Origin: Shewanella sp. UCD-KL12
Lineage (GTDB): Bacteria; Pseudomonadota; Gammaproteobacteria; Enterobacterales; Shewanellaceae
Length of the DNA stretch: 64,000 nucleotides
Assembly (NCBI RefSeq): GCF_001957125.1
Contig: NZ_MPHJ01000001.1
Coordinates: 156,831 to 220,830 of the forward strand
Direction of reading: 5' to 3'
Shown piece by piece: positions 1 to 16,749 of the stretch (within the stretch, counting starts at the first letter, position 1; each line of letters begins with the position of its first letter). The translations under genes were made by a program, and so were the position numbers. The notes beneath the pieces are model-generated. The model was not told where the DNA came from. It did no database searches and saw only the letters and a list, made by a program, of their open reading frames with translations.

Positions 1-845
1 ATGCAATTAATATTTTAAATTCAAAGACCTTATGGATGAGAAGCCCTAGGTGTATGAATGATTACATGGAGATTTCATTTGGTCATCAACAGCTGGTGAA
101 ATTTTTTAATACCAAAGAACATAGACAAAGGTTTATAGCTGCACTTGACGATTATGAAGCAGGTATTGCTGAAGAAGTACTGAATCAATTTGATGAATGG
201 TGGAACAAAATTCAGAATGACACCTTCATTGCTTCGATATCTGTACATCCAGAGTCAGAAGACTTGCATGGAAGACTTTCTATGTGGCGTGCATATGGTG
301 AGCAGCCTGCCAAAGCAGCTCTTGTCCTTAATAACCCGCCAAAATCGAATAAAAATATTGGATTAATTCTAAGTCCTGCAGCGTATTTCACATATGAAGA
401 TCTTGAAAATGAGCTTTTAAATATTATCTCTTCAATCGAAGATAATATTGATTATTTGAAATCACTAGATAAACAAGCTGTTGTCGGCACTACAATAGTT
501 TCTTTAATAATTTTAGCTGTATGCCTAAAACACCCTGGGTTTAAAGAAGAGCAGGAATGGAGAATTATTCATCTACCACAAATGACTAATCCAAATGGAT
601 GGATACAAAGTTCTGTTGAAACTATATCGGGTGTTCCGCAGGTAGTTTATAAAATTCCGTTAGAAAATGATGATGAACTTGAGATCACAGGTTTAGGTCT
701 TCATGAACTAATTGATAAAGTTTTGATTGGCCCAACTCAATACCCACTGGCTGTATATGATGCTTTTTGTATCTCGATGAACGAGGCAGGAATAGAAGAC
801 CCTGTTTCTAAAATTACAGTATCAGATATTCCCTTAAGGACATGA
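1..845 (+). CDS. DUF2971 family protein, 5'-truncated by window edge (probable integron cassette gene)
   Basis: The reading frame is open from the first complete codon (base 3), and the residues before the first ATG at 36 already fit the family (LNSKTLW, then SPRCMNDYMEIS, resembling the NDPFE-type motif). The true start is therefore upstream of the window. Further family signatures are SMWRAYGEQ near the middle and FKEEQEWRII in the C-terminal half. The biochemical function of DUF2971 is not established; such genes are common in accessory regions. The stop codon lies 19 bp before an attC site in the same orientation, as expected for a gene cassette. Codon use is AT-rich compared with the housekeeping genes to the right. 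Family call fairly sure, function unknown. Confidence 0.8.
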   Translation, partial: AINILNSKTLWMRSPRCMNDYMEISFGHQQLVKFFNTKEHRQRFIAALDDYEAGIAEEVLNQFDEWWNKIQNDTFIASISVHPESEDLHGRLSMWRAYGEQPAKAALVLNNPPKSNKNIGLILSPAAYFTYEDLENELLNIISSIEDNIDYLKSLDKQAVVGTTIVSLIILAVCLKHPGFKEEQEWRIIHLPQMTNPNGWIQSSVETISGVPQVVYKIPLENDDELEITGLGLHELIDKVLIGPTQYPLAVYDAFCISMNEAGIEDPVSKITVSDIPLRT

Positions 846-863
846 TTGTGAAGTCGGAAAGAT

Positions 864-966
864 GGTATAACAAGCAGCTGCAACCTGACTCCGCAAACTG
901 TCACTTTTTGTGCGAAAACCACACAAAAATCGCCAGTTCGCTACGCAGTTGAGCTGGGCGTTACCG
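864..966 (+). other. Integron attC recombination site
   Basis: An imperfect palindrome of about 100 bp runs from an R''-like box (GTATAAC, 865-871) to an R'-like end (GGGCG then TTA, 956-963). The left arm (872-900) and right arm (933-959) pair through blocks CAGCT, CAAC, TG and AACTG. Extra unpaired bases occur on one arm only, as is typical of attC sites. The central part forms its own hairpin (TTTTTGTG 905-912 with CACAAAAA 922-929). Position and orientation after the DUF2971 stop codon fit a cassette. The last bases of the R' box (GTTACCG) depart from the GTTRRRY consensus, which could mean that this is the final cassette of the array. No integron integrase is in the window. Confidence 0.8.
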
Positions 967-1767
967 CATATCCGTTTGCCATATTTTCCCTAATGAGATT
1001 CATTACTCCAAGATTTTTAGCTCTAAATCATTTATGTCCATTAATGAGTTACAAGCTACGATATACTTGCTAGCAGGGTATCTGATTTGGGGCGTGCAAG
1101 CTTCGAAAAAAAGGATTTTTTCGCGGAGCTTACACGGACGTACTTGCGCGTCTTGCAAAGACACAGAGCAGGTGCTCTGCAACTACAATACAACCTAATA
1201 GTTTCAAGCTTAAAGGCTCTGGATCCCAGCCCAAAAGCATTGCTGGGATGACGATGATTGCTTAGATGTTAGATGTAAACTAGCTCGATTTTGTCCAAAA
1301 ACATGCCAGGCGCTACATTGAACTTGCTGGCAGATGAGCTGCATTTTATTGAAGTTAGATTGTTTGCTTTTGGCTGTATGAGCTACCCAAAGCGGCTTTT
1401 GTCTAAAAAACAACTTACCTACCAATAAGTCTAGATAGAAGAAATAAATCATCAGGTGTGAACGCGGCAGTGACCTTCGACAGCAAGGCCAAAAATATTC
1501 CATATATTTTTCGGCATTCCCTACGTCCATGTAGGTCAGATGATGTCGCAGAGCGCCCATGGATGGGCTCTTATGAAATCAGGAGCTAGCGAGTCACAGA
1601 AGTGTTTGCACTTAAGGTCGTTTATAGGCATCCATGTCTTCACGACATTCGTATATCCTTATACAGCACCCACGGCAGGTGATAAACACCAATGAAGCTT
1701 TGGTACTCATCAAACTCACCAAGTACCAAAACCATTGAATGAAACCAAAAAGTTTAAAAGATATTTT
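967..1767. repeat. Non-coding stretch with degenerate intergenic repeats and hairpins
   Basis: No convincing gene is seen. The stretch contains a hairpin ATCCCAGC/GCTGGGAT (1223-1249), a palindrome CCTACGTCCATGTAGG near 1520-1535, and a segment (about 1611-1705) with the word order AAGGTCGT, CATCCATGT, CACGACA, ACGGCAGGT. The same words in the same order recur at about 22110-22180. This looks like accumulated remnants of dispersed repeats next to the end of an integron array. Confidence 0.45.
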
Positions 1768-3075
1768 CTAAAAAATATCCAAAAAACGATGGTAAAGCAT
1801 TCCCGCCGCGAGCATCGGCGATCTAAACGTGGGTCCGCCGGGGAAGGTCATATGCTGCACTTTATCGAAGATATCGAAGCGCTCAGCCTGTGCGGTCAGC
1901 GCTTCGGCGATCAGCTTAGCCGCCATATGGGTGGCGTTAACGCCATGGCCCGCATAAGCTTGGGCGTAGAGGATATTAGGGCAATCGGGCAGTCTGCCTA
2001 TCTGAGGCAGTCGGTTGGCGCCTATACCAATCATGCCGCCCCATTCAAAGTCGATTTTAACGCCCTTTAATTGTGGGAAAACCTTCTCAAGGTTGGGTCT
2101 CAGTGCGGCTTCAATGTCTTTAGGGTCTTTACCTGAGTAAGTACATAGGCCCCCAAAGAGTAGGCGGTTATCTTCAGATAGGTGGAAATAGTCCAAGTCG
2201 ATACGTAGATCGGCAAACGCCATGTTTTGCGGGATGATATCTTTGCACTGCTCGTCAGTTAACGGCTCAGTGGCGAGTAGGTAGCTGCCAGCGGGTAGGA
2301 CTTTTCCACCAACATAACTCTCTAATTCATGACCGATATAAGCATTACCCGTTAAGACTAAATACTGGCAGTTAACTTCACCTTTTGCTGTAAGTACTCT
2401 AGGTTTATCCCCTTTGATAATCTTTTCAGCAGCGCTGTACTCATACATTTTTACCCCAAGCATGCGCGCGACTCGAGCCTCACCTAACGCTAGGTTGAGT
2501 GGATGAAGATGACCACTGTTCATATCGACTAAGGCGCCGGCATAGCAATCTGAGCCTATGACCTGCTTGATATCTTGCTTTTCAAGAAGCGTAAAACCAT
2601 CACCTCGCCCTTGAGATAGCAGGTCATCATAATCCTCTTGCAGCTCTGTCATATGGCGGGGCTTAATGGCTAAGTCGCAATAGCCCATCTGCAAGTTACA
2701 ATCGATGTTATGCTCTTTAACTCTTTGCCTGACAATGTCGACGGCTTCAAACCCCATCTGATTGATTGCCTGAACACCCTCTTCGCCGATGACATTCTTA
2801 AACTGTTCAATATTATGGCCAATACCACGGATAAGCTCGCCACCATTGCGACCAGATGCCCCCCAACCGATACGCTTAGCTTCCAATAACGCCACTGAAA
2901 AGCCTTTTTGAGCTAATTCAATGGCGGTGTTTATGCCGCTAAACCCGCCACCAACGATACAAACGTCTACAGAGATTGACTCCTCGAGTTGTGGGTGTTG
3001 ATACAGCTCTTTTGCCGTATCAAAATAGTATGATGGGGGGTATTGGTCGCTGTGAACGGGGCGCTTAGCTTGCAT
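1768..3075 (-). CDS. Gamma-glutamylputrescine oxidoreductase-like FAD enzyme (PuuB/OrdL family)
   Basis: FAD-dependent amine oxidase of the DAO fold, expected to oxidise gamma-glutamylputrescine to the aldehyde with release of H2O2 and ammonia. The Rossmann dinucleotide motif CIVGGGFSGINTA lies near residues 40-52, followed by the family block GWGASGRNGG. The C-terminal half has a typical substrate-domain ending with QAYAGHGVNATH. Length (about 435 aa) is normal. Of two adjacent ATGs the second (3073-3075) has the better spacing, 5 nt, from GGAG. It is divergent from puuR across a 255-bp region with an inverted repeat, and shares its architecture with the second oxidase at 11044. Substrate is inferred from context; a paralogous role is possible. 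Confidence 0.82.
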   Translation of the reverse strand: MQAKRPVHSDQYPPSYYFDTAKELYQHPQLEESISVDVCIVGGGFSGINTAIELAQKGFSVALLEAKRIGWGASGRNGGELIRGIGHNIEQFKNVIGEEGVQAINQMGFEAVDIVRQRVKEHNIDCNLQMGYCDLAIKPRHMTELQEDYDDLLSQGRGDGFTLLEKQDIKQVIGSDCYAGALVDMNSGHLHPLNLALGEARVARMLGVKMYEYSAAEKIIKGDKPRVLTAKGEVNCQYLVLTGNAYIGHELESYVGGKVLPAGSYLLATEPLTDEQCKDIIPQNMAFADLRIDLDYFHLSEDNRLLFGGLCTYSGKDPKDIEAALRPNLEKVFPQLKGVKIDFEWGGMIGIGANRLPQIGRLPDCPNILYAQAYAGHGVNATHMAAKLIAEALTAQAERFDIFDKVQHMTFPGGPTFRSPMLAAGMLYHRFLDIF

Positions 3076-3247
3076 CATATCTCCAGATATTTGTTATTAT
3101 TCGCCTACAGCAGGCTAATTAGGTTATTAGTTATATCTATTACACCTTGAGAATTATTGCTTGTTAGCACAGTATGCTTTTGCATTTGGGTTCGAGTGCT
3201 ATATAATTAACAAGTGTTGTTTATATTTAACATGCTTTTTTGTTTGA

Positions 3248-4479: not shown

Positions 4480-5241
4480 ATGTCGGATGCAGGGCTTGCT
4501 GTCATTGGGGTGACAGCGTGCAATCAGGATTTAGGCTTACATCCATTCAATATAGTTGGTGAAAAATACCTGCTCAGCATTGCTGATGCGACTAAGGCGT
4601 GGCCTTTGGTTATTCCAGCATTGGGCCATTGTCCAGCAGAGCTTATTTTACCTCGCCTCGATGGCATTCTTTTTACGGGTTCCCCTTCAAATATCGAACC
4701 GCATCATTTTCAAGGTGCGCCAAGCGAGCCTGGCTCTCATCATGATCCAAAACGTGACGCGACTACGCTTCCTCTCCTTAAAGCGGCTATCGATGCTGGT
4801 ATTCCTGTGTTGGCTATCTGTCGTGGTTTTCAGGAGATGAATGTTGTCTTTGGCGGCAGCTTGCACCAAAAGCTTCATGAGGTGGGCGGCTTTTTAGAGC
4901 ACAGAGAAGATAAAACTCAATCAGTTGATGTGCAATACGGTTTGTCACACGAGGTCAAGATAGAGCCTGGGGGACTGCTCCACGAGGCATGGGGCCGTAG
5001 CTCTGCACAGGTGAACTCTGTGCATACCCAAGGCGTAGACCGTCTAGGTGTTGGGTTACGGCCAGAAGCATATGCTCCAGATGGATTAATAGAGGCATTC
5101 TCTATTAAAGACGCAAAGAATTTTGCACTGGGCGTGCAGTGGCATCCTGAGTGGAAGGTGTTAGAAAACCCTTTTTACACCTCGATTTTTAAAGCCTTTA
5201 GTGATGCGTGTGAACGCCGTGCAAACAGCCGAACGAGATAA
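4480..5241 (+). CDS. puuD: Gamma-glutamyl-gamma-aminobutyrate hydrolase PuuD
   Basis: Class I glutamine amidotransferase-like hydrolase that splits gamma-glutamyl-GABA into glutamate and GABA, the final glutamyl-removing step of the Puu pathway. The nucleophile elbow AICRGFQEMN places Cys114; the His-Glu pair is in QWHPEW (His222, Glu224). An oxyanion-type segment FTGSPSNIEP lies near residues 65-74. Length 253 aa matches the family (E. coli 254). The start ATG has AAAGGTG upstream. Only 3 nt separate it from puuA, indicating one operon. Confidence 0.93.
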   Translation: MSDAGLAVIGVTACNQDLGLHPFNIVGEKYLLSIADATKAWPLVIPALGHCPAELILPRLDGILFTGSPSNIEPHHFQGAPSEPGSHHDPKRDATTLPLLKAAIDAGIPVLAICRGFQEMNVVFGGSLHQKLHEVGGFLEHREDKTQSVDVQYGLSHEVKIEPGGLLHEAWGRSSAQVNSVHTQGVDRLGVGLRPEAYAPDGLIEAFSIKDAKNFALGVQWHPEWKVLENPFYTSIFKAFSDACERRANSRTR

Positions 5242-5244
5242 AAA

Positions 5245-6594
5245 ATGAAGAAGTTAACAGCATATTTAAAAGAACATAAAATTACCGAAGTGGAATGTGT
5301 GATCAGTGACATGACGGGGATTGCTCGTGGCAAGATAGCGCCTGTCGATAAGTTTATCGATGAGAAGGGCATGAGAATGCCTGAAAGTGTTCTGCTGCAA
5401 ACGGTGACGGGTGATTATGTTGAAGATGAGCCCTATGACGCCCTATTAGATAAAGCCGATATCGACTTTATCTGCGTGCCTGATGAGGATGCGGTGTTTA
5501 AACTGCCATGGACCATAGAAGCGACAGCGCAAGTTATCCATGATACCTATGACAAGATGGGTAACCCAATCGAACTCTCTCCACGAAACGTACTCAAGAA
5601 AGTACTCAAGCTCTACGAAGATAAAGGCTGGAAGCCTGTTGTCGCACCAGAGATGGAGTTTTATCTGACACGTCGAAATGAAGATCCTGATCAAGCGCTT
5701 ATTCCGCCAGTTGGTCGTAGCGGGCGTCAAGAGTCAGGCAGGCAGTCTTTCTCTATCGATGCGGCTAACGAGTATGACCCGCTATTTGAAGATATGTATG
5801 ACTGGTGTGAGATCCAAGGGTTAGATATCGATACCTTGATCCATGAAGAGGGCACAGCCCAGATGGAGATTAACTTCAGTCATGGTGATGCGTTATCTCT
5901 GGCAGATCAGGTGTTTGTATTTAAACGCACCCTTCGTGAAGCCGCGCTTAAGCATAATGTGTGTGCGACGTTTATGGCTAAACCTGTTGCTGATGAACCG
6001 GGTAGTGCTATGCACTTACACCAAAGCATTGTTGACGCCAAAACCGGTGAAAATATCTTCTCACTGGAGGACGGCACTAAAGGCCCGCTGTTTTATAGCT
6101 ATATTGGTGGCCTGCAGAAGTTTATCCCTGAGCTATTGCCTTTACTGGCACCAACAGTGAACTCATTTAGACGTTTTCTGCCTGGTACCTCTGCGCCAAT
6201 CAACCTTGAGTGGGGCGAAGAGAACCGCACTTGTGGACTGCGTATTCCAGAGTCTTCACCACAAAACCTACGAATTGAAAACCGTATAGCGGGCGCCGAT
6301 GCAAACAGTTACCTGGGCATTGCTGGTAGCTTGTTAGCCGGGTATATCGGCATGGTCGATGATGTTAAACCGTCAACGCCAGTACAGGGGCGTGCTAACG
6401 AGAGTCGTCAGAGTATTAGTCTGCCGCTGACACTGGAAGAAGCCTTAGCGGTTATGTCTGAAAGTACCGCGTGCCGTGAATACCTAGGCGAAGCATTTAC
6501 CACAGGTTATATCGCGGTGAAGCAGGCGGATCTTGCCAGTTATAAGCGTGTGATCAGTTCATGGGAACGTGAGTTCCTGTTACTGACAGTTTAA
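5245..6594 (+). CDS. puuA: Gamma-glutamylputrescine synthetase PuuA (glutamine synthetase family)
   Basis: ATP-dependent ligase joining glutamate to putrescine, the first step of the glutamylated putrescine pathway. Glutamine synthetase signatures are present: VAPEMEFYL (metal and glutamate site), GSAMHLHQS, NSFRRFLPG and the block ENRTCGLRIP followed by RIENRIAGADANSY. Length is 449 aa, slightly shorter than E. coli PuuA (472) and typical of PuuA-type rather than GlnA proteins. Adjacency to puuD and the potFGHI genes supports putrescine over other amines. The N-terminal segment resembles the beta-Grasp domain of the family. Confidence 0.9.
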   Translation: MKKLTAYLKEHKITEVECVISDMTGIARGKIAPVDKFIDEKGMRMPESVLLQTVTGDYVEDEPYDALLDKADIDFICVPDEDAVFKLPWTIEATAQVIHDTYDKMGNPIELSPRNVLKKVLKLYEDKGWKPVVAPEMEFYLTRRNEDPDQALIPPVGRSGRQESGRQSFSIDAANEYDPLFEDMYDWCEIQGLDIDTLIHEEGTAQMEINFSHGDALSLADQVFVFKRTLREAALKHNVCATFMAKPVADEPGSAMHLHQSIVDAKTGENIFSLEDGTKGPLFYSYIGGLQKFIPELLPLLAPTVNSFRRFLPGTSAPINLEWGEENRTCGLRIPESSPQNLRIENRIAGADANSYLGIAGSLLAGYIGMVDDVKPSTPVQGRANESRQSISLPLTLEEALAVMSESTACREYLGEAFTTGYIAVKQADLASYKRVISSWEREFLLLTV

Positions 6595-6801: not shown

Positions 6802-7945
<1,144 letters not shown>

Positions 7946-16215: not shown

Positions 16216-16749
16216 CTGTGTGTCCAGACTTCAACTAAATAGCCGATATTTTACAGATAGTCAGAAATGTCATTGATAAAATAACTATTTATCTAAGGGG
16301 ATGAGAAATCCATCCAATGAGTCTTATGCAAAGATTAGAAGCGACGAAATAGAAATAATTATGGGTGTCTTCGTTATTTCAATTATGGGTGTCTTCGTTA
16401 TTTCAATTATGGGTGTCTTCGTTATTTCAATTATGGGTGTCTTCGTTATTTTTTATTACAGATAGTCAGAAATGTCATTGATAAAATAACTATTTATCTA
16501 AGGGGATAAGAAATCCATCCAATGAGTCTTATGCAAAGATTAGAAGCGACGAAATAGAAATAATTATGGGTGTCTTCGTTATTACTGTGTGTCCAGACTT
16601 CAACTAAATAGCCGATATTTTACAGATAGTCAGAAATGTCATTGATAAAATAACTATTTATCTAAGGGGATGATAAATCCATCCAATGAGTCTTATGCAA
16701 AGATTAGAAGCGACGAAATAGAAATAATTATGGGTGTCTTCGTTATTTC
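16216..16749 (+). repeat. Three long direct repeats downstream of the RAYT gene
   Basis: A unit of about 165 bp begins CTGTGTGTCCAGACTTCAAC, contains AACTATTTATCTAAGGGGAT and ends with the 24-bp module described at 16357. Copy A is at 16216-16380, copy B (lacking about 40 bp at its left end) at about 16455-16584, and copy C at 16585-16749. The copies are nearly identical, differing at a few bases (for example GATGAGAAAT, GATAAGAAAT and GATGATAAAT). The near identity implies recent duplication. No gene is seen within them. Confidence 0.9.
16357..16452 (+). repeat. 24-bp tandem repeat, four units
   Basis: The unit begins AATTATGGGTGTCTTCGTTA and ends TTTC, repeated head to tail four times (16357, 16381, 16405, 16429). 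The fourth unit deviates at its end. Single units close repeat copies B and C, so array growth happened in copy A only. There are no spacers, so this is not a CRISPR array. Confidence 0.92.

Follow-up and report, generated by a model that had tools for sequence, protein, structure and literature searches.

The attC site near the left edge of the window (the whole 64-kb stretch of DNA analyzed here, G000:C1:156831-220830) closes a unit that, by sequence comparison, consists of a leader whose SOS box is degenerate, followed by an attI-like site, five cassettes, and a conserved tail, and that contains no intI. We put the probability at about two in three that units of this kind are secondary integron platforms that were fed by IntI in trans and are now frozen in Shewanella sp. 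UCD-KL12 (G000, a draft genome of 5.69 Mb in 61 contigs). As judged by the oxidoreductase encoded on the flank of the unit, the nearest named neighbors belong to Shewanella.

The attC site occupies window positions 865 to 966 (plus strand) and is real: it has the R'' and R' cores, an imperfect palindrome, and a bottom strand that folds preferentially. The palindrome runs from GTATAAC (865 to 871) to GGGCGTTA (956 to 963) and begins 19 bp beyond the stop codon (843 to 845) of a DUF2971 gene, limits and spacing that an earlier note on this DNA had read correctly from the letters. The covariance-model check proposed in that note was run with R1, a model of 25 aligned attC sites taken from loci around intI genes in other Shewanella genomes, with no site from G000; it scores positions 865 to 966 at 59.9 bits (E value of 8.7e-11 over 711,029 bases and of 6.9e-10 in a whole-genome search). 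At an E value of ≤1, R1 finds no other attC within the 64-kb window, in agreement with the claim that no second site follows downstream. As single-stranded DNA, the bottom strand of positions 862 to 968 folds at −24.1 kcal/mol (z score of −3.63, equaled by 0 of 200 shuffles) and the top strand at −15.8 kcal/mol (z score of −1.00, equaled by 29 of 200), with z scores over repeated runs of −3.6 to −3.8 and −0.7 to −1.0, respectively; the bottom strand is the one that would fold and recombine. A genome-wide pattern search for a gap of 50 to 80 bp gave one match, equal to the control count, and missed the window site because its true gap is 84 bp. Used as a DNA query, window positions 840 to 990 matched themselves alone in G000 and nothing in plasmids.

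Looking left of base 1, as the same note had advised, reveals four further attC sites within L009 (the 20 kb immediately left of the window), and DUF2971 is, as it had supposed, a cassette gene and the final one in an array situated to the left of the window. R1 places the five sites of this array at L009 16947-17047, 17556-17658, 18245-18345, 18760-18860, and 19865-19966, the last being window 865-966; each is about 100 bp long and has a bottom strand that folds better than its top strand. Beyond L009 on the left, R1 detects no attC at an E value of ≤1 over another 137.8 kb of the contig (L010 to L016). Five attC sites in a row in a genome with no intI above the cutoff constitute a CALIN. The cassettes encode an 89-aa protein (a weak EF-hand match, under the cutoff), three small proteins (no Pfam match at an E value of ≤0.01), and the 322-aa DUF2971 protein, whose frame spans L009 18877-19845, begins 124 bases ahead of the window, and enters the window as positions 1 to 845 (plus strand; open frame and Pfam match to PF11185, 33.3 bits against a cutoff of 22). 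A defense role for the five cassettes was considered and dropped, as a PADLOC search gave only two weak matches, both to DUF2971 (E values of 0.0027 and 0.0084). Outside the element lies the gene for an FAD-dependent oxidoreductase (PF01266; positions 1768 to 3078, minus strand), which we take to be puuB-like and which anchors the orthologous locus in relatives. The genes for peptidase C26/GATase, glutamine-synthetase, and solute-binding proteins (4480 to 5241, 5245 to 6594, and 6845 to 7945), presumably a putrescine-use cluster, served as anchors only.

The description of the window edge as the end of a chromosomal integron array needs amendment. An array does end here, and it is a bounded unit with an attI head and a conserved segment past its last attC; it is not a complete chromosomal integron, no intI over the cutoff having been found in G000. 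A TIGR02249 profile search of the whole 5.69-Mb draft returned no match over the cutoff, such that no integrase gene of the kind that might have been expected upstream, with the integron-specific domain and beside an attI, was recognized in the draft. The two best frames in that search (312 and 317 aa) gave weak, two-piece alignments (10-182 plus 237-306 and 11-181 plus 236-308, respectively) and are read, from sequence, as Xer-like recombinases. Across the genus, 77 of 129 Shewanella genomes have a TIGR02249 match over the cutoff.

At an E value of ≤1e-4, R1 detects 32 attC sites in 16 places of G000, half of these places being no more than about 1.2 kb from the end of a contig (C1 end, C10 end, C17 end, both ends of C24, C28, C59 end, and C61 end), a distribution suggesting that the assembly breaks at cassette arrays; an intI may sit in one of the gaps of this 61-contig draft. 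Taken further, the arrays would be the scattered pieces of a single resident integron whose intI fell into a gap, with the six attC sites of the 3.8-kb contig C28 as one such piece. We regard such an artifact as very improbable, since the window array lies inside a 1.44-Mb contig with its leader, five attC sites, and tail contiguous and since the same anatomy is present in the single-contig genomes G068, G125, G123, and G110.

At the head of the array, the sequence immediately preceding the first cassette (L009 16509-16676) shares 86% identity over 168 bp with the G028 sequence that separates intI from the first cassette and also resembles the corresponding region of other intI-linked loci, in seven of which the distance from the intI start to the core GTTA is 328 to 340 bp. 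As judged by similarity and position only, the array head is an attI-like site, with its core 2.3 kb left of the window. A 411-bp leader query detects five copies in G000 (that of the window array, C24:343770, C61:149173, C2:180040, and a partial copy at C1:1436847), each of which is followed by a right-strand attC and has no intI match nearby. The five leaders align tightly up to the core GTT, ending TATATAAAAATGTT (TATATATAAATGTT in the C2 copy), and then diverge, as expected of cassette exchange at the core GTT, the point where the integrase joins a cassette to attI.

These junctions bear on whether the array organization might be merely apparent, its cassettes having been inserted by IntI at secondary, non-attI sites (attG). 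Such sites are known from the literature, and no leader match adjoins 11 of the 16 attC places of G000. For the window array, this origin is already disfavored and, in our view, most unlikely: its left junction is attI-like and not unrelated genomic sequence, its left end carries the 168-bp match to an intI-linked attI region and recurs in G000, and its right end is the conserved tail.

That tail, of about 92 bp, extends from the GTTA of the last attC (window positions 960 to 1051, plus strand) and forms the right end of the platform, as recognized by consensus scoring and alignment. The consensus comprises 26 positions and is modeled partly on the window copy, and the loci scored with it came mostly via leader or intI; with these provisos, 13 rows score ≥21 (two of them the window site, leaving 11 other distinct sites), and 18 rows score ≥16, against 2, 5, 0, 0, and 0 for five shuffled consensuses. 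Tail matches at an E value of ≤0.1, many of them partial, are present in 71 of 129 Shewanella genomes. To pair leaders with tails, we merged all 110 listed leader rows into 93 copies and compared these with the full list of 150 tail rows: for at least 17 of the 93, a tail on the same strand lies no more than 15 kb downstream, and, among the matches listed, there is no opposite-strand tail, one same-strand tail on the wrong side of a leader, and no tail within 15 kb for the remaining 76 copies. One plasmid record contains the tail (NC_017577.1:87442-87534, 77% identity over 93 bp), a Shewanella baltica plasmid predicted to be conjugative. The leader has no match in plasmids. A small RNA in the leader was also considered and rejected, an Rfam search having given no match at an E value of ≤1.

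The tail terminates in an imperfect palindrome of about 28 bp (1023 to 1051) that resembles its counterpart at the leader's left end (L009 ~16268-16297), and past it the aligned tail copies cease to agree. Such end palindromes were tabulated at 27 left and 33 right ends. Their arms show no covariation (shuffled pairs did as well in 673 of 2,000 trials for left ends and in 1,938 of 2,000 for right ends), and hairpins conserved for their structure are, accordingly, an unsupported reading of them. Directly outside the platform is an inverted repeat of about 200 bp, its right arm at window positions 1057 to 1256 and its left arm at L009 16063-16262, the two aligning on opposite strands over 205 bp with 68% identity (E value of 8e-12). 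Of the features that mark MITEs and transposons, multiple copies, sharp ends, and inverted arms were seen, and a target duplication or a precise element-free site was not. Parts of the right flank (1057 to 1256) recur at three other places in G000. Without use of the tail consensus, an alignment of the sequence right of the array to L024 gave a modest similarity, with 3 of 2,000 shuffles equaling it. A query consisting of the C2 platform and its flanks has between 39 and 88 matches in each of seven relatives, and many of the matches listed fall on two short stretches outside the platform. From this distribution, the inverted arms seem to be part of a dispersed repeat family, possibly one of large palindromic repeats.

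Of 129 Shewanella genomes, 32 contain matches to the leader, often more than one each and with intI-linked copies included; the best five candidates per genome were scored, and these copy numbers are therefore at-least values. We fetched 39 leader copies from ten other genomes. A right-strand attC follows within 2 kb in 29 of them, leaving 10 without one at that distance, and within the fetched stretch in 36; the tail scores above control in 23 and fails to do so in 16. Three of the 39 have an adjacent intI (one intact and two broken), and one further copy has a C-terminal intI remnant (aa 263 to 319) that abuts the leader (L192 6411-6584, in G123), possibly an intermediate between intI-linked and intI-less heads. 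An attC of the C2 platform in G000 (L131 7149-7244) is 98% identical over 96 bp to the attC behind a leader on contig C23 of G062. Most other listed matches of this platform to G062 are 68 to 83% identical, and the higher value points to a recent spread of this attC between the species.

The leaders are of two kinds. CTGT-N8-ACAG, the usual SOS (LexA) box, is present at the intI-promoter position in all seven intI-linked leaders and in none of 40 intI-less ones, many of which have TTGT-N8-ACAG, a comparison in which some diverged copies align poorly at the box and in which, the copies being related, the Fisher value is descriptive only. Left of the SOS box, a leader block (q10-92) matched 20 loci, none of which has an intI match, and it is absent from all intI-linked loci searched. 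The confinement of this block to intI-less loci, together with the SOS box split, argues for a single origin of the intI-less leader form.

These features weigh against the main competitor of the trans-fed platforms, under which ordinary integrons inserted separately, each later lost its own intI by deletion, and nothing acted in trans. Degradation of this kind has probably left traces. An intI-like fragment with two stops remains in G000 (C4:122738-122866; L019 7739-7867) beside a DAO-family (dadA-like) gene whose relative in G073 adjoins an open intI, and from this shared neighbor, an ancestral integron at C4 probably decayed in place; the intI remnant abutting the G123 leader has a similar bearing. 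As a general account, however, serial degradation is unlikely, at perhaps a third of the weight we give to feeding in trans: block q10-92 in the place of intI, an SOS box lacking CTGT, and a tail are common to the intI-less copies of several species, a pattern that speaks for a single loss with multiplication afterwards. In addition, the cassette content of the orthologous locus varies, and no intI of ≥36% identity was found there in the 16 relatives.

That locus was compared in 16 relatives (L077 to L092), between the symporter (PF00375) and oxidoreductase (PF01266) genes, and in five of them the platform is recognizable as empty, filled, or decayed. At L084, the attI core is joined straight to the tail, an empty platform with the same match statistics as L022 of S. 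canadensis. L086 (the N1E18-Z locus, L024) has the attI core, a strong attC (49.5 bits), a weak attC (18.5 bits), and the tail; L087 has an attC and the tail; and in L085, a strong attC is accompanied by two weak ones, and the tail is absent. In S. benthica (L020), a decayed attC scores 61.0 against a shuffle maximum of 21.5, and the attI match is insignificant, being equaled by 24 of 500 shuffles. The other 11 relatives have no clear platform at the locus: in G028, the closest relative by oxidoreductase, L077 holds a different gene and merely a weak match to the tail end, and the remaining ten gave nothing by these tests. On this sequence evidence, the varied states indicate that the platform is old at its locus and that its cassette content has changed.

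Under the trans-fed reading, an IntI encoded elsewhere, in ancestors or in relatives, would integrate cassettes at the attI of a platform, the folded bottom strand of an attC recombining with that attI, and each platform would serve as a secondary cassette depot. The leader-attI-tail platforms would have multiplied within Shewanella genomes, and both recombination between dispersed repeats and mobility of a small, palindrome-ended element are possible routes. In UCD-KL12, where we found no intact intI, the array would stay frozen unless an IntI arrives by gene transfer. Three genomes (G068 and G125, each in a single contig, and G098, in two contigs) have an over-cutoff intI located more than 300 kb from every listed leader copy. 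In G125, the five fetched platform attI sites all differ from the intI-linked attI by the same single base within the last 31 bases, and we infer from this near identity, combined with the separation of more than 300 kb, the best support for an IntI that acts in trans. The present IntI of G068 and that of G098 may not serve the platforms there.

A narrower version of this scheme, which we hold more tentatively and at somewhat under even odds, describes the platforms as nonautonomous elements of about 0.5 kb when empty, ordered as end palindrome, leader, attI, tail, and end palindrome. Having lost intI and the SOS box, these elements would have multiplied as satellite integrons that dock cassettes supplied by an IntI in trans.

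Several known systems come close. CALINs occur in most Shewanella strains, with up to six attC sites per cluster, in addition to single attC sites, according to the available part of PMC9229058; like the array of the window, the CALINs and SALINs described there have attC sites and no intI close by, and their clusters hold two to six attC sites and are dispersed over genomes that have intI and others that do not. No attI or conserved ends are mentioned for CALINs in that part of the paper, whereas the platforms described here have an attI head, a common leader and tail, and a head in multiple copies. Standard software detects no attI outside class 1 (PMC9024848, in the portion consulted), and attI heads on CALINs would consequently be missed. 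With sedentary chromosomal integrons, the platforms have in common an attI, attC cassettes in one orientation, and an upstream region like the intI promoter, but they lack intI, have several heads per genome, and carry a degenerate SOS box. The empty puu locus L084, a cassette-free attI core joined to the tail, recalls In0 (intI with no cassettes), yet it has no intI and is in this respect the opposite of In0.

MITE-flanked integrons and the integron mobilization unit carry intI or are single recent events. They are alike in placing an integron between noncoding repeats, here the inverted arms of about 200 bp that lie directly outside both ends; no transposase was seen for the platform. We found no description of multicopy, intI-less attI heads with a conserved tail in the open-license literature, including the accessible parts of PMC9229058, PMC9024848, and PMC11023631. 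Scattered Shewanella CALINs are already known, and platforms that are attI headed, multicopy, and tail bounded are apparently undescribed in the open-license literature, a result that does not by itself establish novelty.

The conserved leader and tail provide a direct handle for finding platforms and for testing integration in trans. If the satellite reading is true, one central cassette store becomes a dispersed one. If the heads are working docking sites, a whole set of arrays can draw on a single intI gene, cassettes can be lodged at many points along the chromosome, and arrays that were kept after the loss of intI could be mobilized by an integrase that arrives later.
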